Virus record (IMG/VR): IMGVR_UViG_3300010158_005441 | Location: 1 to 20,462 of that record | Strand: one strand, 5' to 3' | DNA from: a virus | Length of the DNA stretch: 20,462 nucleotides | Shown: piece after piece, positions 1 to 20,462 of the stretch | Layout: every line of letters starts with the position of its first letter | Position numbering within the stretch: the stretch's first letter is position 1 | Made by a program: the position numbers and the translations under genes | Notes under the pieces: generated by a model | The model's input: the letters and a program-made list of their open reading frames with translations, nothing else | The model's database searches: none | What the model was told of the DNA's origin: nothing

Positions 1-306
1 ACCACACTTGCTGGTGGCCTGAGGATTTTTTATTTCGAATTGTTCGCCCATGAGACTTTTGGTATAGGCTACCACGGACCCCTGTACATACTGCATGCTC
101 AGAGCATCTACCAGTACTGTCACACCCAGTTGTTCTATGACAAAATCATCGTCATTCTGTAGTTCGTCAAAGGTAAAGCCATACTGAAAACCACTGCATC
201 CTCCGCCCTGTACAAACATGCGAAGTTTTAATTCAGGATTGCTTTCCTCGGCCAACAACTCTGTAATTTTATCTGCTGCAGACTGCTCTATGGTTATCTG
301 GTCCAT
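1..306 (-). CDS. IscA/HesB-like iron-sulfur cluster carrier (partial, C-terminus off left edge)
   Basis: This is an A-type Fe-S carrier of the HesB/IscA/ErpA family, which delivers Fe-S clusters to apoproteins in the cytoplasm. The 102 codons visible from the ATG at 304-306 cover nearly the whole domain. The GGGCSGF motif puts the first ligand at Cys37. The frame ends in TSKCG at the window edge, giving Cys101. The family's third cysteine (CGCG motif) would be the next residues, outside the window. Cys spacing matches IscA. The gene follows the small membrane-protein gene by 12 bases. There is no clear Shine-Dalgarno sequence, and a TATAAATA box sits 5 bases before the start. A role in boosting host or phage Fe-S enzymes, such as QueE in this same phage, is inference. 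Confidence 0.9.
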
Positions 307-10927: not shown

Positions 10928-11428
10928 TTAGTCCTTGTTGGTCCACCAGTCTTCCCAGGGGAACACAATCCAATCGTCGCAGGCAGAATCCATGAGCAAT
11001 TCACCATAGTAGTCACAGTCAAAACAACTGGTGCATTTTTCCAACATGGTGGCATATAAGAATATCTGATTAAAATATTCACCATCAACAAAATCTTTAA
11101 TGGCCTTGAGTGTGGCACCTGAGTCATTGATGTCATCAACAATTAATACACTGCCACCAACTTTTTCAGCATCCAGGTAGGCCTGACTGAGCATTTCACT
11201 ATCGTCTGGGCCAAACTCCTGAGCATTGTTGCGATCTCTGAGACTGTAGTCCAGTATGTACAGGGGCACATCATAATAATGGCTCAGCATCACAGCTGGT
11301 GTTAGTCCGCCTCGCACTATGCCAACTACAGCAGCAATCTTACGGTTATCTTTCTGTAAATGACGGACTATGTTGGCTACCAGTCCTTCGCTTTCTTTAC
11401 AGCCAATATATCTTTTCTTTGTAATCAT
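10928..11428 (-). CDS. Purine-type phosphoribosyltransferase
   Basis: A 166-residue type I phosphoribosyltransferase, which joins a base to PRPP to make a nucleotide. The PRPP loop VLIVDDINDSGAT is at 94-106; upstream GIVRGGLTPAVMLSHYYDVP (about 36-55) is the strand-loop-helix typical of xanthine/hypoxanthine enzymes, followed by the LDYSLRDR hood segment. Near the C-terminus a CTSCFDC cluster (Cys132, 135, 138) is unusual for the family. The substrate cannot be fixed by eye; in this phage salvage of purines, or of a deazapurine, is possible. It starts 2 bases after the gp46 stop and is followed by tRNA-Thr. Confidence 0.85.
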   Translation of the reverse strand: MITKKRYIGCKESEGLVANIVRHLQKDNRKIAAVVGIVRGGLTPAVMLSHYYDVPLYILDYSLRDRNNAQEFGPDDSEMLSQAYLDAEKVGGSVLIVDDINDSGATLKAIKDFVDGEYFNQIFLYATMLEKCTSCFDCDYYGELLMDSACDDWIVFPWEDWWTNKD

Positions 11429-11430
11429 AA

Positions 11431-13149
11431 TTATCCTTGCGCTATGCGACTAAAATTCTGATACTTCTCAAACTTAATAACACTACGGAACTTGTCAAAT
11501 AAAACATCACCCTTGTGACTGATAACAAACACATTGGTATCATCGCCCAGGGTATTCAAAATGTTCATTAAATAATCCGTGGCATTATGATCCAGACTGC
11601 TGTCAAACACTTCGTCCAGCAACAATAAATTGGTGCTGGCACTGTTCTTCATCTTGGCTATGGTACGCCAGGTAAAAAGCAGAGCCAGATCGATGCGTTG
11701 TTTTTCACCTTCACTAAAACTTGCATAGGTAAAATCATCACGGTGGCGACTTTTGATGGTCTCATTAAACGCCTCGTCCAGCTCAAAACTAACAAAAAAG
11801 TCCATGGCGGCCAGATACTTGTTGACCAGTTTATTAATCACAGGCAGATACTGACGCACAATTTTTGTCTTGATACCAGTATCTTTTAATAAACTGCTGG
11901 CTATGTCCTGATAGTATTTTTCTTCGTTCAGTGTGGTCTTTTCGCTGACCAGTGTCATGACTTCTCGAGCCATGGCTCGTAATTTTTGCTTTTCATCATC
12001 CAGATTGCTGGTATCGTCTTCATCGTGTAATTTTTCTTCCTGCAGCTTCTGTATGTATTTCTGTCCGGCTATGACCTGATGGTTATAGCTGATGAGATTG
12101 TCCTCGGCCGTGCTGATACCACTCTGTATCTGTACTATGTTGTCAATCTTGGCATTGATGCCCTGCATCTGAGCTTCCAGAGCCAGTATGGCTGTTTGTA
12201 GCTCGGCTTCTTTGGCACTGTGCTCAGCCAGAGCTTTTACTTTTAAATCGTCAGTCAGAGCCTGATCACAAGTTGGGCAATTATCATGTTCCTGATAAAA
12301 TTTAATATCAGTCTGAGTCTTGTTAATTTTATCTCGCAGTTGTCGGCTAATTACAAACATTTCATCTTTGTCACCATAGACCTTTTCGGCATCGGCTATG
12401 TTGGCCTGCAGGCCCATGATTTCTGCTTTGATTAAATCAACCTGTATGAGATGCTGGTTGATTTCTTCTTCGGTGATCGCAATGCGCTGATCAACATCTG
12501 CACTGCGTTTCTGCTGACTTTCTTTCAGAGTGCGAATGAATTCATCCTGCAACTTGACCTTTTCTTTGTGTACTTCGATGTCGCCATCCATCTGACGAAT
12601 GCGATCTGCCAGCTCTCGACCCTTGTCCTTGAGTATGCTGTTCATGACACTGAAGATACGAATGTCCAACAGATCCTCGATGATTTCACGACGATGACTG
12701 GGTGGCAATTGCATGAATGGTGTAAAGCTAGCACTTCCCAAAATTACAATCTGAGTGAATGATTTATAATTAAGTTTTAGAATATGCTCTTCTAAAAACT
12801 TCTGAAAGTCACGACTATCAGCTTCCTGGTTGAGCTGTACACCATCCACGAGTATTTCAAACCTAGCAGGTTTGTGGCCTCGGATAATCTTGTATTGCTT
12901 GCTGCCAATCTGAAATTCTAATTCTACTTCTAGATTTTTCTGATTAATTGAATTTAATAACTGTGGTTTACTGACATCTCTGAACCCCTTGTTAAACAGG
13001 GCAAAGCAAATGGCATCCAAGATGGTACTTTTACCTGCGCCATTTTCACCAACAATCAGGGTAGTTGTCTGACGATCTAACTGTACGCTGATGCCAGCAT
13101 TGCCAGTCGAAAGCATATTCTTCCAGCTTACGCGTTTAAATTGTATCAT
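11431..13149 (-). CDS. 46: gp46 recombination endonuclease subunit (SbcC/Rad50-like)
   Basis: A 572-residue SMC-type ATPase that works with gp47 to resect DNA ends for recombination-dependent replication and host DNA breakdown. Walker A GENGAGKST is at 34-42, the zinc-hook CPTC at 291-294 sits in the middle of a coiled coil (about 175-410), signature SFSEGEKQR at 477-485, Walker B LLLLDEVFD at 508-516, then the D-loop SSLD and a late ISHK switch histidine. Length is close to T4 gp46 (560). ATGA overlap with gp47 implies coupled synthesis of the complex. Confidence 0.97.
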   Translation of the reverse strand: MIQFKRVSWKNMLSTGNAGISVQLDRQTTTLIVGENGAGKSTILDAICFALFNKGFRDVSKPQLLNSINQKNLEVELEFQIGSKQYKIIRGHKPARFEILVDGVQLNQEADSRDFQKFLEEHILKLNYKSFTQIVILGSASFTPFMQLPPSHRREIIEDLLDIRIFSVMNSILKDKGRELADRIRQMDGDIEVHKEKVKLQDEFIRTLKESQQKRSADVDQRIAITEEEINQHLIQVDLIKAEIMGLQANIADAEKVYGDKDEMFVISRQLRDKINKTQTDIKFYQEHDNCPTCDQALTDDLKVKALAEHSAKEAELQTAILALEAQMQGINAKIDNIVQIQSGISTAEDNLISYNHQVIAGQKYIQKLQEEKLHDEDDTSNLDDEKQKLRAMAREVMTLVSEKTTLNEEKYYQDIASSLLKDTGIKTKIVRQYLPVINKLVNKYLAAMDFFVSFELDEAFNETIKSRHRDDFTYASFSEGEKQRIDLALLFTWRTIAKMKNSASTNLLLLDEVFDSSLDHNATDYLMNILNTLGDDTNVFVISHKGDVLFDKFRSVIKFEKYQNFSRIAQG

Positions 13150-14204
13150 AGTGTCTCAGTGTGTTGAGCTTCTACATAGAGTTCTTTGAGCAGATTTTTA
13201 ATCCTGGGCTTATCAGCATCAGTTTCAACTCCGTCAACAAATCCATTCAGTAGGCTAATGGTATCTTCTAGGTTGATGTCTTCGTCGTCCAGAGCGTCAG
13301 CTTCAAACTCGCTGAAGTCCTCGATGATCTTTAATTCTAATATATTTTCCTTGTAGAGTCGATCCATGAAACAATCATACTTGTAGAAGTCTGTCTTGTT
13401 AATTATGACTAACTTGACCAGTTTATCTTTGAATAAACCAGTATCAATCTGGTCTGGATCTATGCGAGTATCGTCATACAGATACTTAAAGAACATTTCA
13501 TTGGGATTGACTATGAGTTCCAAGTCCAGTGTGTCGGTGTCCAGTATGCTAAAGCCTCGGGGATCGTCATAGTCATTCCAGGTCAGTCCATAGGGGTTAC
13601 CTGTATAGGTTATGTTGCCCTGAGTGCTGCGATGATGAAAGTGTCCGCTATAAACATGATCAAAACGATCAAACAACTTGGCATCCATGCCGTGTTCATT
13701 TAACTGGCCCTTGTACATGCTAAAACCGGCCAGTTCCAGATGACTAAACATTACTGGAGCCGTTGTAGTCTGTACTAATTGCATGGCGTCTGCATAGTTG
13801 TCTGAACAGATCCAGGGCATCATGACAAATTTAAAATTGTCCAGAGTTACTTCGGTTGGAGCTGAATAGGTAGTTACTCTGTCATAGTCACTTAACAACA
13901 GATGTGGGCTATTTACATAATTGGTGTTCTTAAAATAAGTATCATGGTTGCCAGCTATGAGATGGCAATCTATGCCTAACTCTTCTAGTCGATCAAAGAA
14001 GTATTCACGACAACTTTTAAGTATGTAAAAATTTATGTACTTGCGACGATCAAAACAATCGCCCATGTGTATGATGGTCTTGATACCACGTTTTACTAGC
14101 TCTGGGAAGAACACTTCGTCATAGAATTTACGAAAGTACTGATCAAAGGGTATGCTGTCGCCTCGGGCTCCAAAATGTGTATCAGTTATTATGGCTAATT
14201 TCAA
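13146..14204 (-). CDS. 47: gp47 recombination endonuclease subunit (SbcD/Mre11-like)
   Basis: A 352-residue calcineurin-like phosphoesterase, the nuclease half of the gp46/gp47 complex. Metal-binding motifs are complete: DTH at 8-10, GDCFDRR at 48-54, GNHD at 85-88, SH at 154-155 and GHFHHR at 187-192. The TYTGNPYGLTWND segment that follows matches T4-like gp47. The acidic C-terminal third probably carries the gp46-binding part. Length close to T4 gp47 (339). The start overlaps the preceding small gene by 23 bases. Confidence 0.97.
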   Translation of the reverse strand: MKLAIITDTHFGARGDSIPFDQYFRKFYDEVFFPELVKRGIKTIIHMGDCFDRRKYINFYILKSCREYFFDRLEELGIDCHLIAGNHDTYFKNTNYVNSPHLLLSDYDRVTTYSAPTEVTLDNFKFVMMPWICSDNYADAMQLVQTTTAPVMFSHLELAGFSMYKGQLNEHGMDAKLFDRFDHVYSGHFHHRSTQGNITYTGNPYGLTWNDYDDPRGFSILDTDTLDLELIVNPNEMFFKYLYDDTRIDPDQIDTGLFKDKLVKLVIINKTDFYKYDCFMDRLYKENILELKIIEDFSEFEADALDDEDINLEDTISLLNGFVDGVETDADKPRIKNLLKELYVEAQHTETL

Positions 14205-14414: not shown

Positions 14415-14975
14415 TTATTTTGCGTTATAATAAGTTGAACGGCTCTTAGGAGTTTCCCACCATTCAATCATGTCTACTCTGACTCCCAACTTGTTCATTT
14501 TAGCATCAACCAAGTCAGCCATCCATTTACTTAAATTCTCAGATGTTGGAACAAAATCCACAATCATGAATCCTTCATAATATTCATATTCAGGTGTATT
14601 AGGTTCTAGGTCACCCAGATAGATCTGATGCCCAGCTACATGAGTAGTATCAGGAACATAGACTGGAATTAATTTACGGTCACCAATGATCTGGTTGTAC
14701 AATGGATCTGCACGATCCAGAACAAACTGATGATCAACATAGGTATTGATCCATTTCTTTAACCACTCTAGATGTCTGAAATCTGTTACCATGCCTGTAG
14801 CATCTAGTTTACAAATCTCATCTTTATTGGCCAAATGAACCTGCAACTTACCTTCATGACCATGCAGATGTCTGCAGGCACACTTTAGATCTGCTGCATA
14901 CTCACCATTGAGTTTCTGTGTCCAAACTCTGTGTCCATAACAAAATTCAAATGTCTTATCAATTACCCATGCCAT
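14415..14975 (-). CDS. queD: QueD 6-carboxy-tetrahydropterin synthase
   Basis: A T-fold enzyme converting dihydroneopterin triphosphate (the FolE product) to 6-carboxytetrahydropterin, the step before QueE. Zinc ligands are visible: His15 in FCYGHRVW, and His38 and His40 in CRHLHGH, with the catalytic Cys34 in the C-x3-HGH motif. MVTDFRHL (about 61-68), PTSENLSKWM and the C-terminal EWWETP with the substrate-anchoring Glu complete the family pattern. At 186 residues it is longer than usual (about 120), with extra sequence around 85-135. It is separated from folE by the sugar genes but on the same strand and apparently the same transcript. The start overlaps the TagD-like gene by 17 bases. Confidence 0.92.
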   Translation of the reverse strand: MAWVIDKTFEFCYGHRVWTQKLNGEYAADLKCACRHLHGHEGKLQVHLANKDEICKLDATGMVTDFRHLEWLKKWINTYVDHQFVLDRADPLYNQIIGDRKLIPVYVPDTTHVAGHQIYLGDLEPNTPEYEYYEGFMIVDFVPTSENLSKWMADLVDAKMNKLGVRVDMIEWWETPKSRSTYYNAK

Positions 14976-15396
14976 ATTCTGCCCTCTCCGCTTTTTTATG
15001 TTCTGCTAATGCTACACGTTGTCTTAGTTCACTGCTGCTGAAACTATGACGACGTTTGTTATAATGGATTTCTGTATCAAAATCTTTGCCAGTAAAATCT
15101 TTGTCTTTGTATTCTTCACCAACAAAGCGTACATCTATTCTATATGATAACAATAGGTCTGTCAATTCCTTTTCGGTAGCATAGGGAATAATTTCGTCAA
15201 CATACTTGCAGGCCTTGAGTTGTTCAAAACGTTCAAATAGACTCTGTATGGGTTTATTCTTTTCGGGACGATCAATGGTTGGATCTGATTGAACTCCTAC
15301 AATTAAATAATCACAGTGCTCTTTGGCTTCTTTGAGCATCATTAAATGACCAGCGTGAAACAGGTCGAATGTACTGCAGGTAAATCCTATTTTCAT
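14959..15396 (-). CDS. TagD-like glycerol-3-phosphate cytidylyltransferase family protein
   Basis: A 145-residue nucleotidyltransferase of the cytidylyltransferase fold, joining a phosphorylated small molecule to CTP. The HAGH motif (14-17) follows the strand MKIGFTCSTFDLF; GVQSDP (34-39) is the usual second motif; and HSFSSSELR (117-125) replaces the ISTTxI signature. Length matches TagD-type enzymes. The start forms ATGA with the glycosyltransferase stop. The substrate could be glycerol-3-phosphate or another alcohol phosphate. In this cluster it may supply an activated group to the glycosyltransferase, which is inference. Confidence 0.88.
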   Translation of the reverse strand: MKIGFTCSTFDLFHAGHLMMLKEAKEHCDYLIVGVQSDPTIDRPEKNKPIQSLFERFEQLKACKYVDEIIPYATEKELTDLLLSYRIDVRFVGEEYKDKDFTGKDFDTEIHYNKRRHSFSSSELRQRVALAEHKKAERAEYGMGN

Positions 15397-16466
15397 GGTT
15401 GCACCGTATTGATGTCTAAAAGTAAATCCAACATTTTATTGCAGTTTAAATAATGATTCTTGATGGTATCCTGAGCTATGCTCAGAGCCTGGGCATACTT
15501 GCCTGGATTGTTCATTCTGTCAGCAATAAATTCAGTTAACTGAGGTTTATAAGCCACATAGTTTTCATAGCTGCTGGTCCAGACACTGGGATACAGGAAC
15601 TCTGCAGGATACATTTCGGCATATGAACATCTGTCAGGTAACACTGGAATGGTTCCTGCCAGCACGGCTTCCATGATGCTGATGCCTAGATTTTCATGCA
15701 GGGCACAACTAAAGATTATGGCACTGGATGCCAGCTCAGCATAATAGCTGTCTTTGTCCAGTCCCATTTTAGCAGTTATAACCACATCAAAATCAGTCTT
15801 TAGGTCCTCGGCTATGTCAGGTTGCTTGTCTGCATTATATCTATGAGGCCAAATTACTTTATTATCTTTGACGATGTCTCTGAGTGCTTCTAATTTAGGT
15901 ATGATGTATTCATGAGGCTGACCACTTCTATGGGCCTTGTATGCATCTTTGATGTCCAGGTTTTTTAAGAACATGTCTCTGTGGAAGTTAGTAGCATACC
16001 AGTTATAATCACAGGCATAATACCAGGCGCGTTCCTGATGTGGTGGCCAATCCTTCTGCATCTTCATGCCCAGTATGTCAGTTGGGTCATAATGACCTGC
16101 ATGCCAGATGCCATGAATCTCCACAGGAATTTCCAACAGGTCAGACATGTAGCGAATAGCTGTAATGGCAAAATTCCAGGCATCGGTTACCAGGAACTTA
16201 TCACCAGCTTTAACATCGCCTCGCATAAAGCGTTCAGATATGTTCTGAATCTGCGAAGCCTTGTAGATATTAGTTGCTGCAAAGTCCAGGAATGCTCCAG
16301 CAGTTGTTCCATTGGTGGCACCTCGGCCTTCAATGGTAACCAATTCAACTGGATCTAAATCTAATTCACTGACTCTGTCGCCAATGATGCGTGGCAGATT
16401 TTCATACCACTGCTTGGTATAACGACTGTCAATTGGTTCTATGGGTACTAAATAGATTGTCTTCAT
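15393..16466 (-). CDS. Glycosyltransferase (GT4-like, GT-B fold)
   Basis: A 357-residue protein. The C-terminal half has the GT-B nucleotide-sugar site: the ALHENLGISIMEAVLAGT motif (about 255-272; the E-x7-E type) followed by PVLPDRCSYAEMY. The preceding FDVVITAKMGLDKDSYYAELASSAI segment is the usual strand-turn-helix. The N-terminal half has GDKFLVTDAWNFA and HGIWHAGHYDP, unlike common surface-sugar enzymes that I know. No membrane segment or signal, so it is cytoplasmic. The acceptor could be DNA (as for T4 alpha/beta-glucosyltransferases), a modified base or a virion protein; position inside the deazaguanine cluster favours a base, but this is unproven. It overlaps the upstream fusion gene by 38 bases. 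Confidence 0.8.
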   Translation of the reverse strand: MKTIYLVPIEPIDSRYTKQWYENLPRIIGDRVSELDLDPVELVTIEGRGATNGTTAGAFLDFAATNIYKASQIQNISERFMRGDVKAGDKFLVTDAWNFAITAIRYMSDLLEIPVEIHGIWHAGHYDPTDILGMKMQKDWPPHQERAWYYACDYNWYATNFHRDMFLKNLDIKDAYKAHRSGQPHEYIIPKLEALRDIVKDNKVIWPHRYNADKQPDIAEDLKTDFDVVITAKMGLDKDSYYAELASSAIIFSCALHENLGISIMEAVLAGTIPVLPDRCSYAEMYPAEFLYPSVWTSSYENYVAYKPQLTEFIADRMNNPGKYAQALSIAQDTIKNHYLNCNKMLDLLLDINTVQP

Positions 16467-17217
16467 TTATTCTCTCTATGTCAGATTCTTCACAATAATC
16501 ACCGTACTGTATTTCTATGATATGCAGGGCTTCTTTACCGCCATTGATTAACTGATGCCAGGCATTGCGTGGTACATGCACGTAATCACCAGTATATAAT
16601 ACTTTAGCCTCGCTGTCAATGATACAGCTGCCTATGCCTGATCTAACGAACCATAGTTCATCTCTGAACTCATGACTCTGATAGCTTAGACAATGGTTGG
16701 GTTCAACCACAATTTCCTTGAGCTTGCATTTTGGATATTTTTTAAGTATGTCAAAATGCCCCCAGCTGCGTTCGGTTCTTTCATATTGCCAATCCTCCAG
16801 AATCCAACGACTTGAATTCATTTTATTGTCACCACCAACACCAAACGCAAATTCTAACAGGGGATCTTCTAGATCCTGTTCGGGCACATTACCTTCGGTT
16901 CGGTCACCGCCATTGGCAAATATGATCTTGGTGCCAGGATAGGCTTTGCGGACCTGACGAATTAAATCACGACTGCTGTTATCGCTGTCATCGAATTCCC
17001 AGACCTGATCTACACCTTCTAGGGCAGCTAGTATGGCCAGACGTTCATGCAGGGGCATGAATGGTCGACCTTTTTTCTCAGTTAACCAGTTATCTGAATT
17101 GGCGCCAACAAATAATAGTTCACCCAGCTGTTTAGCTGCTTTGATGTAGGCAATATGACCTGAATGTATGGGGTCAAATCCGCCTGTGACTATGACTATG
17201 CTCTTAGGAATTCTCAT
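16429..17217 (-). CDS. Fusion: HldE-type nucleotidyltransferase + mannose-6-phosphate-isomerase-type cupin
   Basis: A 262-residue two-domain protein. Residues 1-145: VTGGFDPIHSGH (HSGH at 18-21) and GANSDNWL are the motifs of RfaE/HldE-like sugar-phosphate nucleotidyltransferases. Residues 150-250: WGHFDIL, then LSYQSHEFRDELWFVRSG, GDYVHVPRNAWHQL and a final YGDYCEESDIERI, the pattern of the ManC C-terminal / type II phosphomannose isomerase cupin, with metal ligands probably His182, Glu187 and His221. Together it could isomerise a sugar phosphate and activate it. Start at ATG 17215-17217, with AGGAAG 4 bases upstream; the longer frame to 17286 lies in the upstream gene. Confidence 0.85.
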   Translation of the reverse strand: MRIPKSIVIVTGGFDPIHSGHIAYIKAAKQLGELLFVGANSDNWLTEKKGRPFMPLHERLAILAALEGVDQVWEFDDSDNSSRDLIRQVRKAYPGTKIIFANGGDRTEGNVPEQDLEDPLLEFAFGVGGDNKMNSSRWILEDWQYERTERSWGHFDILKKYPKCKLKEIVVEPNHCLSYQSHEFRDELWFVRSGIGSCIIDSEAKVLYTGDYVHVPRNAWHQLINGGKEALHIIEIQYGDYCEESDIERINEDNLFSTHRTN

Positions 17218-17638
17218 GATTGCTTCCTGTGTAGTGTTGCATGCGTGGTTTATACTGCAGTATGGCTCCATTTTCACCATCTTCACTTACTTCAATTTCA
17301 ATGTCTCGACCTGCATAGCGATCTATGATCTGGCTGAGCAAATTGTCCGCAATCATTTCACAGCTCTTATAGTTGAGTTCTAGAATGTTGCCACTGTACA
17401 GGGATTCCAACCAGCGTTTGAATTGTATAAATTCAATTTCTCTGTCGTCGTGCCACACAACGATGCGCACCCTGAAATGAAACATATGGCGATGAGGATT
17501 AGCCAAAAACGATACATCATATGCATCTCCGGTTTTTAATTTTGGATCTGTTGCAGCAGCTGGATAGCAGTGTATGCCTTCCTTCTGAAAACGAACTTCA
17601 ATCCATTTGTTTATAACTCCTGCTCCACTGTGTGTCAT
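17204..17638 (-). CDS. Conserved-type phage protein, possible T-fold (QueD-like) relative
   Basis: A 144-residue protein resembling an uncharacterised protein of cyanophage-like T4-like phages. Notable segments are VRFQKEGIHCYPAA (about 15-28), FLANPHRHMFHFRVRI (about 44-59), the HDDREIEFIQFKRWLESLY run, and the end KSCEMIADNLLSQIIDRY followed by IEIEVSEDGENGA. The alternation of a His-rich strand, a long helix, and a final S-E-x2-A-x2-L helix then acidic strand parallels QueD (PTSENL then WWETP), so a T-fold homologue is plausible. The queD zinc/cysteine triad C-x3-HGH is not present. It has ATGA overlap with the TGT-like gene, so the two probably work together. Function unknown. Confidence 0.7.
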   Translation of the reverse strand: MTHSGAGVINKWIEVRFQKEGIHCYPAAATDPKLKTGDAYDVSFLANPHRHMFHFRVRIVVWHDDREIEFIQFKRWLESLYSGNILELNYKSCEMIADNLLSQIIDRYAGRDIEIEVSEDGENGAILQYKPRMQHYTGSNHENS

Positions 17639-18888
17639 GCAAATAATCCTCCAAGGGTTATGGGTTCAACATATTCCTGTACGGCTTCCGAGGCCATGTA
17701 TGGTCCAACCTCGGCCAGCCAATGATTAAAATCTTCAGTTGTACGTACTGAGTATAAGGCATTAAAGGCTGTGGCGTCAATACCTCGACTCATGTTCATG
17801 ATCTCATCACGACTGGTGCTTAATTTTTCAACATGAACCAGGAAGTTTTTAATGGCACTGGACACAAAGGCTACATAGGTCTGCAGGCTTGGATCAATAT
17901 TACCGTGCTTTTCCTGATAGGTTCGGCTACTGATGTTCAGAGCTTCATAAAAGGTATCCAGATCATATTCATAGAATGGAAAGTTTCGTTTGATGTCTTC
18001 CCAGACAATTTTGTAGCTCTGATCAAATACTCGGGTAAAGTTATAGGCTAGGTCATTCATGTAATAACGGCCCTGGGTAACGCCGCTGGTATGTGTGGTA
18101 GAGTCATAGCTCATTTCAACATTCTGATAGACACCAGACTGCATGAATATGAACTGTGGAATCATTCTGTATACACTGCCTACACCCAACAGATGCAGAT
18201 GTTTGCTTTCCAACTCTATGGGTAACTGAGTAAAGTAAAATGCTCGTTTAAAGTCCTCTAATGAACCCTTGCCCAGAGCAGCTGCCCCCATGGCTATGCC
18301 ACCAATGCGGCTGATGTGATATGGAGTTAATTCCTCCACAATATACTGCACCCATTTCATATAGCTGTCATAGTCATTGCCCTGAGCTATGAGCATGGGG
18401 CGAGCTTTACTTTCTTTTTCGTCAAAGAAGTCAATCTGACGACGCAGATTTTTACCAGTTGCACGAGCAGCAGTTTCTAACTGACTGCGATCAAAGCGAC
18501 GATTGCTCAGATCTAATCTTTCACTGCGGCCGCCGGCATCTAATGTACGAACTGGTATGACATCAAAACACATGGCAATATCAGAATTTTTTGCCTGGCT
18601 GGCGTATACTTCTTCTTTAAGTTCTGTGGTTATGGTGCGACCCAGTGTGACCATCTGCAGTCCACCTGAGTCACCATGAATACTATGCACCAGTGGTTTG
18701 TAGTGTTCGCCCATCCATTCGCCCTGACGTTTTTCAACATAGGCATTATAGAGCAGGCTTATTTTGTGATTGTGTGTGTTGTTTAAGCTGCCAAAGGTAC
18801 GAGCAAAGAAGTCTAGATTTTGTTTTTCTAGACTTTCCGCATACATGAGCTTAAAATAACTACTTCCACTGGCTACATATTCTAACAT
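17635..18888 (-). CDS. dpdA: TGT-like base transglycosylase (DpdA-type)
   Basis: A 417-residue TIM-barrel protein of the tRNA-guanine transglycosylase superfamily. Family landmarks in order: HGDSGGLQMVTLG (Asp73, general acid/base position), DIAMCFDVIP (103-111), PMLIAQGNDYDSY (164-176, the LFGIVQGG strand), ISRIGGIAMG (192-201), HLLGVGSV (232-239) and MSYDSTTHTSG (259-269; Asp262 at the nucleophile position). The CxCxxC...H zinc site of true TGTs is absent; Cys107 is the only cysteine. TGT swaps guanine for a 7-deazaguanine in tRNA, and phage DpdA proteins do this in DNA. With queE, folE and queD around it, DNA modification is the best reading. It starts 1 base after the exonuclease stop. 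Confidence 0.82.
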   Translation of the reverse strand: MLEYVASGSSYFKLMYAESLEKQNLDFFARTFGSLNNTHNHKISLLYNAYVEKRQGEWMGEHYKPLVHSIHGDSGGLQMVTLGRTITTELKEEVYASQAKNSDIAMCFDVIPVRTLDAGGRSERLDLSNRRFDRSQLETAARATGKNLRRQIDFFDEKESKARPMLIAQGNDYDSYMKWVQYIVEELTPYHISRIGGIAMGAAALGKGSLEDFKRAFYFTQLPIELESKHLHLLGVGSVYRMIPQFIFMQSGVYQNVEMSYDSTTHTSGVTQGRYYMNDLAYNFTRVFDQSYKIVWEDIKRNFPFYEYDLDTFYEALNISSRTYQEKHGNIDPSLQTYVAFVSSAIKNFLVHVEKLSTSRDEIMNMSRGIDATAFNALYSVRTTEDFNHWLAEVGPYMASEAVQEYVEPITLGGLFA

Positions 18889-18889
18889 A

Positions 18890-19399
18890 TTAACTTCCTA
18901 GTATTTTAATTAAGTGTCGTGTCTGGTGCAGAGCATCGTCCAGTGCATTGTGATACACACCTTGTCGTTCATCTGCGGGTACTTGTATGATATTTTTTAT
19001 GGTTCGGTAACAACGGTCTTCCCAGGGTCTCCAGGGACGTTTTGTATTCACAGCTCTGTAGGCATTTTCCATGATGACATTATCAAAGCCAGCGCCATTG
19101 CCCCACACAGGTAAGCTACTGCGGCCAAACCACTGAGTAAAATCATCCAGTGCCTGACTCAGGCTGACATTGTCTTTGAGCAGAGCCTGACGGGCTTCTT
19201 TGTTCTGCTGATTCCACCATTCCACAGTTTCTGGATCAACATGCAGTCCAACTGCCTTGCAGGTTCGTAAATCCACAGTACGATAAAATTGGTCCACAAT
19301 ACTTTTGCTTTCCAATTCAAATTTAACTGCACCTATGCTGGCAATGGCAGCATTGCTGCGAGTGCTCATGGTTTCCAAATCTAACATGACCTGTATCAT
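18890..19399 (-). CDS. dexA: DnaQ-fold 3'-5' exonuclease (DexA / Rv2179c-like)
   Basis: A 169-residue DEDDh exonuclease. The first motif MLDLETM gives Asp7 and Glu9; AAIASIGAV follows as in DexA. The helix ETVEWWNQQNKEARQ matches the T4 DexA STIEWWKNQ segment. The second motif VWGNGAGFDNVIME carries Asp106; the third, YHNALDDA, carries His150 and Asp155. T4 DexA (227 aa) is a non-essential A-type exonuclease; this form is shorter and close to the Rv2179c-like group. ATGA overlap with folE. Its place inside the modification cluster is notable: it could degrade unmodified DNA, or be there by chance. Confidence 0.88.
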   Translation of the reverse strand: MIQVMLDLETMSTRSNAAIASIGAVKFELESKSIVDQFYRTVDLRTCKAVGLHVDPETVEWWNQQNKEARQALLKDNVSLSQALDDFTQWFGRSSLPVWGNGAGFDNVIMENAYRAVNTKRPWRPWEDRCYRTIKNIIQVPADERQGVYHNALDDALHQTRHLIKILGS

Positions 19400-20091
19400 C
19401 GTGGAGCAAACTCCTGCTGTAGTTTAACATTTTCAAAGAATTCATTCTTGGTGCTTTGATCATCAATAAAACGACCTTTTAGCACAGTTGTCTGAGTCAG
19501 ACTACTATGTGCCATGATGCCTCGGTTCTCACAACAACCATGCGTGGCCTGAATATATACTGCTACATCAGCTGCACCAGTTGCCTTGATAATTTCACGA
19601 GCAATGTCATTACACAATTCTTCCTGCAGGGTGCCACGACGCGCACACCACTGAGCAATGCGTGTATATTTGCTGAGCCCAATAACTTTGCCATTGGGAA
19701 TAATACCAATATACGCTACTCCGCTCACAGGTTGATGATGATGACTACACATGCTGCGAAGTTCACTACGAACCACCAGCATGCCTTTGTAGGCTTCAGG
19801 TCCATCATTAGGGAATGCAGTGGCATTTGGAACTGGTTCATAGCGGCCTGACATAATCTCATAGATGTACATCTTGGCCAGACGACGAGCCGTTCCTTTT
19901 GAATTAGGATCGTTTTCTCGATCAATTACCAGACTATCCAGAACGCCTTCGAACTTTTCAGTCAATTCGTCCACCAACAATGCTTTATCATTATCAGAGA
20001 CATACTCGCTGATGTTATCACCAGCCCAGTATCTTTTATTAGCTTTTTTTAAATGATTGCGAATTTCTTCGCTAACAGGAATATATTTCAT
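19396..20091 (-). CDS. folE: GTP cyclohydrolase I (FolE)
   Basis: Converts GTP to 7,8-dihydroneopterin triphosphate, the entry to folate and to 7-deazaguanine synthesis. Zinc and active-site residues are seen: MCSHHHQP (Cys115, His118), GLSKYTRI (138-145), CARRGTLQEEL (149-159) and ATHGCCENRG (182-191; Cys186 as third zinc ligand). 231 residues, usual length about 220. In this window the product would feed QueD and QueE. It is first in its operon after a consensus promoter, with a leader of about 18 bases and only a weak GAAAG ribosome site. Confidence 0.96.
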   Translation of the reverse strand: MKYIPVSEEIRNHLKKANKRYWAGDNISEYVSDNDKALLVDELTEKFEGVLDSLVIDRENDPNSKGTARRLAKMYIYEIMSGRYEPVPNATAFPNDGPEAYKGMLVVRSELRSMCSHHHQPVSGVAYIGIIPNGKVIGLSKYTRIAQWCARRGTLQEELCNDIAREIIKATGAADVAVYIQATHGCCENRGIMAHSSLTQTTVLKGRFIDDQSTKNEFFENVKLQQEFAPR

Positions 20092-20115
20092 TTCAATCTT
20101 TCTATAGTATTATAC

Positions 20116-20144
20116 AGTATATGATTATTTAGTACGAATGTCAA
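20116..20144 (-). promoter_or_regulatory. Sigma70-like promoter for folE and the deazaguanine/sugar operon
   Basis: TTGACA (20139-20144), 17-base spacer, TATACT (20116-20121). The -35 begins right after the queE stop. Predicted start near 20109. A second TATAAT lies 1 base further downstream but at 24 bases from the -35. Confidence 0.8.
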
Positions 20145-20462
20145 TTACTTTCCAATAACATTGCCAAATACATAGCAATGATTTCGGGTTGCTACATTAA
20201 ATCCACGACGCATGGCATCCAGACTAATTTCAGCCACAGTTGGTAATTCCTGAGCGTCTTTGGTTGCCCCAACTGGCATGATCCAGACTGTTGGTGGTAT
20301 TTGATCTCGTTCAGTAAAATAACTTCTGATTCGGGTATAATGATCATCTAGTTCCGTCCAGCTGGCCGCAGTGCCATCACAGACAAATTTAAGCAAACTG
20401 GTTGCTGGTGTGTCAGCATAGCTCTGAATAATCTCTGGCAGAACTGCATCTTTTTCACCCGC
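20145..20462 (-). CDS. queE: QueE 7-carboxy-7-deazaguanine synthase (partial, N-terminus off right edge)
   Basis: The C-terminal 105 residues of a radical-SAM enzyme that turns 6-carboxytetrahydropterin into 7-carboxy-7-deazaguanine. The frame is open to the window edge. Recognisable QueE end motifs: LLKFVCDG, then PPTVWIMPVGATKDAQEL (LMPxGxTxEE type), then the AMRRGFNVATRNHCYVFGN helix-strand that corresponds to ALxxGYRVSPRLHxxLWG. The CxxxCxxC cluster that binds the Fe-S centre would be in the missing N-terminal part, so the enzyme's integrity cannot be judged here. It ends directly at the folE promoter. Confidence 0.88.
   Translation of the reverse strand, partial: AGEKDAVLPEIIQSYADTPATSLLKFVCDGTAASWTELDDHYTRIRSYFTERDQIPPTVWIMPVGATKDAQELPTVAEISLDAMRRGFNVATRNHCYVFGNVIGK

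Follow-up and report, generated by a model that had tools for sequence, protein, structure and literature searches.

A queC-less DpdA2-type locus in a T4-like phage with a possible sugar-adding branch of 7-deazaguanine DNA modification

The IMG/VR virus record IMGVR_UViG_3300010158_005441, which was analysed over its entire length of 20,462 bases (the window), carries at its right end a run of minus-strand genes resembling a 7-deazaguanine DNA-modification locus. Read leftwards from the right edge, the order is queE, folE, an exonuclease gene, a TGT-like transglycosylase gene, the gene of a 144-amino-acid protein (P144), a nucleotidyltransferase-cupin fusion, a glycosyltransferase (GT) gene, a TagD-like nucleotidyltransferase gene and queD. 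A preliminary description had placed queE, folE, a TGT/DpdA-like gene and queD on one strand within 6 kb, and all four were identified by profile matches. Five more genes inside the run were absent from that description, namely those for the exonuclease, P144, the nucleotidyltransferase-cupin, the glycosyltransferase and the TagD-like nucleotidyltransferase. Since the identical gene set was found in unchanged order in the relatives L004, L009, L010 and L016, chance co-occurrence is not an issue. The assignment to a T4-like phage was borne out by gp44/62/45/46/47-type replication genes in the window and by a clamp-loader gene whose closest match is the counterpart in Methylophilales phage Melnitz (62% identity, E=3e-127). 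A PADLOC search gave no match for the locus. The whole analysis is comparative, and the IMG/VR records used may be fragments; because the window spans the complete record, nothing can be read beyond its right edge.

The TGT-like gene (dpdA2, 17635..18888, minus strand) matched phrog_10773 with E=7e-88, and the general TGT models with E=9e-4 (Pfam TGT, below the cut-off) and E=8e-6 (TIGR00449). A homologue is present in phage KVP40 and its kin (29% identity over 94%, E=8e-39), and closer relatives among named phages occur in Synechococcus phage BUCT-ZZ01 (40%) and Xanthomonas phage X1 (34%). The motifs DSGG (D73-S74-G75-G76, within DSGGLQ at 73) and YDSTTHT (Y261-T267) are invariant in the family alignment, and Asp262 in the latter is the likely nucleophile. 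Judged by its sequence, the protein is a member of the DpdA2 group of KVP40 and nt-1. The group was established with Vibrio phage nt-1; the DNA of this phage contains, at low levels, mainly dPreQ0 besides dADG and dG+ (PMC6884629).

Among the precursor genes, folE (GTP cyclohydrolase I, 19396..20091, minus strand, PF01227 E=1.6e-39) encodes the Zn/active-site motifs CSHH at 115 and HGCC at 184, while queD (6-carboxytetrahydropterin synthase, 14415..14975, minus strand, PF01242 E=9e-27) shows the CxxxHGH and DH motifs and further matches to TIGR03367 (E=3e-14, below the cut-off) and PDB 3jyg (E=8e-45). The gene queE, for 7-carboxy-7-deazaguanine (CDG) synthase, is open at the window end and represented by its 3' part, the last 105 codons (20145..20462, minus strand; QueE-like phrog_2076, E=2.7e-8); relatives carry it in full, for instance at L010:7193-8116 (E ~2e-9 with NCBIfam QueE models, below the cut-off). 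The N-terminus of the window's QueE lies outside the record, and the cysteine pattern was read in the relatives, where 64 of 77 phage copies show CxxxCxxF, followed some 40 residues on by GCD. In these copies Phe takes the place of the third Cys in the usual CxxxCxxC, and the conserved later GCD may supply this Cys. At the opposite end of the window (1-306) a partial IscA/ErpA-like iron-sulfur carrier was recognised by eye, which could serve the radical-SAM enzyme QueE.

The DpdA2 homologue with its TGT motifs, together with FolE, QueD and QueE, supports well the earlier view that this is a 7-deazaguanine DNA-modification locus, and this assignment is very probably right. We infer from it that the phage DNA is modified at all.

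In most loci with P144 and GT, DpdA2 is replaced by a transglycosylase family of about 520 amino acids (TGT520), which was present in 101 fetched loci (e.g. L044:7900-9444) and, among named phages, in PA5oct and Phosso. Its motifs are GDSGG(F)Q and FDCASP. TGT520 gave no match in PHROGs or NCBIfam, and its PA5oct member none in Pfam; a profile comparison with DpdA2 resulted in a probability of 82% (E ~1e-5). One protein beside P144 and GT, in locus L178, matches both profiles and may connect the two families. TGT520 may correspond to the published DpdA3; no Campylobacter phage was matched. In most TGT520 loci, a family of about 170 amino acids (L044:9441-9947), with no library match, is encoded between the transglycosylase gene and that of P144.

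P144 (17204..17638, minus strand) belongs to phrog_17812 (E=3e-33), a family of unknown function, and showed no Pfam or NCBIfam match. Its AlphaFold2 model (pLDDT 91.3, pTM 0.80) has the strand-strand-helix-helix-strand-strand order of a T-fold. The best Foldseek matches were PTPS and E. coli QueD (E ~6e-5), and the VIA comparison resulted in Z values of 12.0 for 2dtt (PH PTPS) and 10.9 for 4ntk (E. coli QueD; 109 residues, 2.6 A). Comparison of its profile with that of phage QueD gave a probability of 77%, compared to less than 1% for four control families. Single-sequence searches of P144 and GT against the PDB sequences, as well as the A1 and A2 profile searches, returned nothing of value, and the relationships of both proteins were resolved only via the predicted structures.

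Across 141 sequences of the P144 family, the residues H23, H49, H51, C93, E94 and E119 are invariant. In the model, H23 closes strand 1, while H49 and H51 open strand 2; the zinc histidines of QueD occupy matching positions. By motif, three metal-type histidines are thus kept and placed as in QueD, and the invariant E119 represents the QueD-type substrate Glu. Based on motif spacing rather than superposition, the catalytic Cys of the QueD motif CxxxHGH is absent, with an invariant Leu45 in its place four residues before HxH, and there is no conserved Asp-His pair between the two helices. The retention of the metal histidines and the Glu without the catalytic residues of QueD indicates that P144 probably handles a related substrate and a metal by a different chemistry. 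Our best guess is that P144 decarboxylates CDG. Cui and co-workers reportedly predicted a CDG decarboxylase, DpdL, in 2023, to which P144 may correspond. The family is encoded on at least 593 stretches in IMG/VR. In Vibrio phage Bakedbeans (L122:9212-10363) and Chryseobacterium phage MA9V-3 (L125:7443-8324), the protein is longer, an unrelated N-terminus preceding P144 at the C-terminal end. With P144 of Cellulophaga phage phiST as the query, the search of viral_contigs retrieved zero loci.

The GT gene (15393..16466, minus strand) was assigned to the GT4 type (GT-B) by its AlphaFold2 model (pLDDT 93.7) and its motifs. VIA comparisons with GT4 structures gave Z values of 21-27 over about 300 residues (26.6 for 6kih, about 25 for BshA), and the donor motifs E258-x7-E266, R209 and K214 are present. 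In the N-terminal, acceptor-side domain, 128 of 130 copies carry the signature ExxxxRYT, and 19 of the 32 positions with >=90% conservation fall in this half of the protein, as would be expected if all copies share one acceptor. That this acceptor is a DNA base is suggested by gene linkage. Queuosine mannosyltransferase (QTMAN), considered as a relative because of a sequence likeness to GT, does not appear in the list of 50 structural matches; a kinship may still exist.

The two genes flanking GT encode nucleotidyltransferases. One is a fusion of an HldE/RfaE-II-like nucleotidyltransferase with a cupin of the mannose-6-phosphate-isomerase type (16429..17286, minus strand; PF01467 E=1e-14, PF01050 E=2e-23; TIGR02199 E=1.5e-20 and TIGR01479 E=3e-22, both below the cut-off), the other is TagD/HldE-C-like (14959..15396, minus strand; PF01467 E=2.5e-19, phrog_7878 E=8e-41). 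Their linkage to GT suggests that they perhaps make its donor sugar. The loci of other phages contain an epimerase-like gene and a DegT-like aminotransferase gene instead, which are candidates for the supply or alteration of the donor.

A QueC gene (PF06508) was found neither in the window, as the preliminary description had stated, nor in 14 close IMG/VR records, one of which comprises 166,912 bases. The suggestion that queC might lie to the right of the window is thus unsupported; since the relatives may be fragments, their lack of QueC is not final for the whole genome. The 21-kb contig L127, which carries an identical GT, was considered as a view of that side, and it starts inside the locus and adds nothing there. 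In a set of 29 records that includes the 167-kb one, full-length QueC was absent from the 26 records with P144, with partial matches in D479 (33 bits) and G018 (25 bits) and nothing over the cut-off in the others; in KVP40, pf16 and Ps15, which have DpdA2 without P144, QueC exceeded the cut-off in all three. Among 15 named phages, a QueC hit was counted in one of 12 P144 carriers (the partial match of 33 bits) compared to 3/3 without P144, which corresponds to a probability of 12/1365 (~0.009), computed by hand and ignoring kinship. QueF (PF14489) was absent from G001, G002 and G008 and over the cut-off only in KVP40 and pf16.

The linkage of GT to this system was examined from both sides. A scan of IMG/VR with GT alone retrieved 43 loci, all with deazaguanine genes; P144 lay within 3 kb in 41 of them, and in the remaining two the contig ends 259 and 1,639 bases upstream of GT. 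Conversely, a TGT-like gene, FolE and GT were all present within 3 kb in 27/27 P144 loci (non-redundant, with 5 kb of sequence to either side), a count biased towards GT carriers by the fetching of P144 loci through their likeness to the window. In 50,697 phage records, GT matched strongly in 15 cases; each of these phages, namely the PA5oct group, Phosso, ACP17 and X1, also carries P144. In GTDB, P144 occurred only on 12 contigs of metagenome-assembled genomes (L170-L181) from discordant taxa including archaea, which are apparently phage contigs binned with cells; nine of these loci contained GT and none (0/12) a QueC match.

GT was found with both transglycosylase families, DpdA2 and TGT520, in the orders DpdA2-P144-GT, DpdA2-GT-P144, TGT520-GT-P144, P144-TGT520-GT and others. 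The variation of the order at persisting proximity argues against a merely inherited neighbourhood. P144 without GT was observed in phiST, RHph_I1_18, MA9V-3, Ahp1, Bakedbeans, D479 and Roos, and the converse was not clearly seen. Since GT hardly occurs without P144, it probably acts after P144.

Because the T-fold protein and the GT4 enzyme are tightly linked to the system, the two end products considered in the preliminary description, the carboxy form and preQ0, are probably both incomplete. We propose the following pathway. Based on homology and the established pathway, FolE, QueD and QueE would make CDG. P144 would then act on CDG or deliver it in the place of QueC, as suggested by its fold, its motifs and the split distribution of P144 and QueC. 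By homology, DpdA2 (TGT520 in other loci) would exchange guanine in the DNA for the resulting base. Finally, as the linkage suggests, the GT4 enzyme would put a sugar on this base, with the nucleotidyltransferases perhaps providing the donor. The locus would accordingly represent a widespread phage type, a queC-less DpdA2-type locus with a sugar-adding branch, in which a glycosylated 7-deazaguanine replaces guanine. From the comparative sequence data, we assign this reading a probability of roughly 0.45.

Several points weigh against this proposal. A QueE without the usual third Cys is not certain to have CDG synthase activity, and the bias of the 27 P144 loci towards GT carriers has to be kept in mind. 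A plain decarboxylation of CDG leaves no obvious O-acceptor, so that either the sugar is linked to C7 or P144 does something else; the roles of P144 and GT do not yet fit neatly together. Furthermore, the host may supply QueC, giving preQ0; a complete queuosine pathway has been reported for the hosts of DpdA2 phages (PMC6884629).

This last point leads to the alternative that survives best, an ordinary DpdA2 locus. Here the phage would boost CDG, QueC of the host would make preQ0 and DpdA2 would insert it, while GT would be an adjacent gene for surface sugars. Such a locus would agree with the predominance of dPreQ0 in nt-1 (PMC6884629), with the interpretation of GT clusters in jumbo cyanophages as outer-polysaccharide genes (PMC7824862) and with the nucleotidyltransferases that flank GT in the window. 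However, it would not be expected from the retrieval of GT almost only beside P144 and a transglycosylase in varied gene orders, nor from the fact that DpdA2 phages without P144 retain their own QueC. The 19 of 32 conserved positions in the acceptor domain of GT are also easier to reconcile with a common acceptor than with surface sugars that vary. We consider this alternative rather unlikely.

A little less probable still is a queC-less locus whose final base, either 7-deazaguanine or CDG itself, comes from P144, while GT leaves the DNA alone. The phages with P144 and without GT listed above speak for this possibility. Moreover, Cui and co-workers reportedly described dCDG and dDG as phage bases in 2023. 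The near-confinement of the GT family to P144 loci would be left unexplained.

A pathway to pterin glycosides, in which FolE and the PTPS-like T-folds make a pterin that is glycosylated by the GT4 enzyme as by the tetrahydrobiopterin glucosyltransferases of cyanobacteria, appears improbable. FolE and two PTPS-fold proteins are indeed present, and the proteins that resemble GT in structure include tetrahydrobiopterin glucosyltransferases (9v0l with Z 22.1, 5zes with Z 21.3), but these matches are no better than those of dozens of other GT4 enzymes, and QueE and the TGT-like transglycosylase, needless for pterins, accompany most GT loci. Since the tRNA of animals contains glycosylated queuosines and the transglycosylase is of TGT ancestry, modification of tRNA instead of DNA, giving a glycosylated queuosine-like base, could also be considered. 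This is hardly credible, as the protein falls into the phage DpdA2 family, of which the nt-1 member goes with modified DNA (PMC6884629), and the window's three tRNA genes, with the anticodons cag, gct and ggt, do not encode queuosine targets (GUN).

If the proposed sugar-adding pathway is true, a sugar-bearing purine would be added to the known phage DNA bases, the unannotated phrog_17812 would obtain a role, and a glycosyltransferase family with an uncommon acceptor would be defined. As many restriction and CRISPR nucleases are usually blocked by sugars on DNA, the finding would bear on the escape of phages from defence and on DNA that is hard to cut or to sequence. In the literature searched, no glycosylated 7-deazaguanine DNA base was found; the key paper of 2023 lies outside it, and the novelty is therefore provisional. 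With PA5oct, Paride, Phosso and ACP17, phages for testing are already in culture.

The remaining genes of the run and its surroundings comprise the DEDD exonuclease (Rv2179c-like, 18890..19399, minus strand, PF16473 E=3e-49), the gene of which adjoins dpdA2 in the window-type relatives, SbcC/D-like genes at 11431-14204 and a phosphoribosyltransferase gene (10928..11428, minus strand, PF00156 E=1.4e-14) as a recurrent neighbour. The phosphoribosyltransferase family was present in 46 fetched loci (e.g. L001:8736-9197) and adjoins queE in BUCT-ZZ01. A MazG-like frame (536-898) starts upstream of the tRNA-Leu(cag) gene (805-889) and runs through it on the same strand; because of this overlap, its true start is probably later.

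Compared to known systems, the DpdA2 locus of nt-1 and KVP40 (Hutinet et al. 2019, PMC6884629) shares a DpdA2-family transglycosylase, FolE, other queuosine-type genes and the T4-like setting, whereas KVP40 has its own QueC and QueF and a glutamine-amidotransferase-like gene, lacks P144 and shows no GT-family match in its locus. In Acidovorax phage ACP17, Xanthomonas phage X1 and Synechococcus phage BUCT-ZZ01, DpdA2, P144, GT, FolE and QueE occur together in another gene order, and the annotation lists P144 and GT as hypothetical proteins; the literature searched contained no study of the DNA of these three phages. The Pseudomonas jumbo phage PA5oct group and Sinorhizobium phage Phosso share P144, GT, QueE and a TGT-like protein, but this transglycosylase is TGT520 instead of DpdA2 and lies 170 kb distant in Phosso. 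PA5oct has already been listed with a deazaguanine system (PMC7824862). Cellulophaga phage phiST likewise combines FolE, QueD, QueE and P144 with the lack of QueC, while its locus contains no GT. In phage T4, glucosylation of hydroxymethylcytosine represents a base change that is masked by a glycosyltransferase. The proposed logic of the present locus, a base change followed by a masking glycosyltransferase, would be the same, while the base, the acceptor and the glycosyltransferase subfamily differ.

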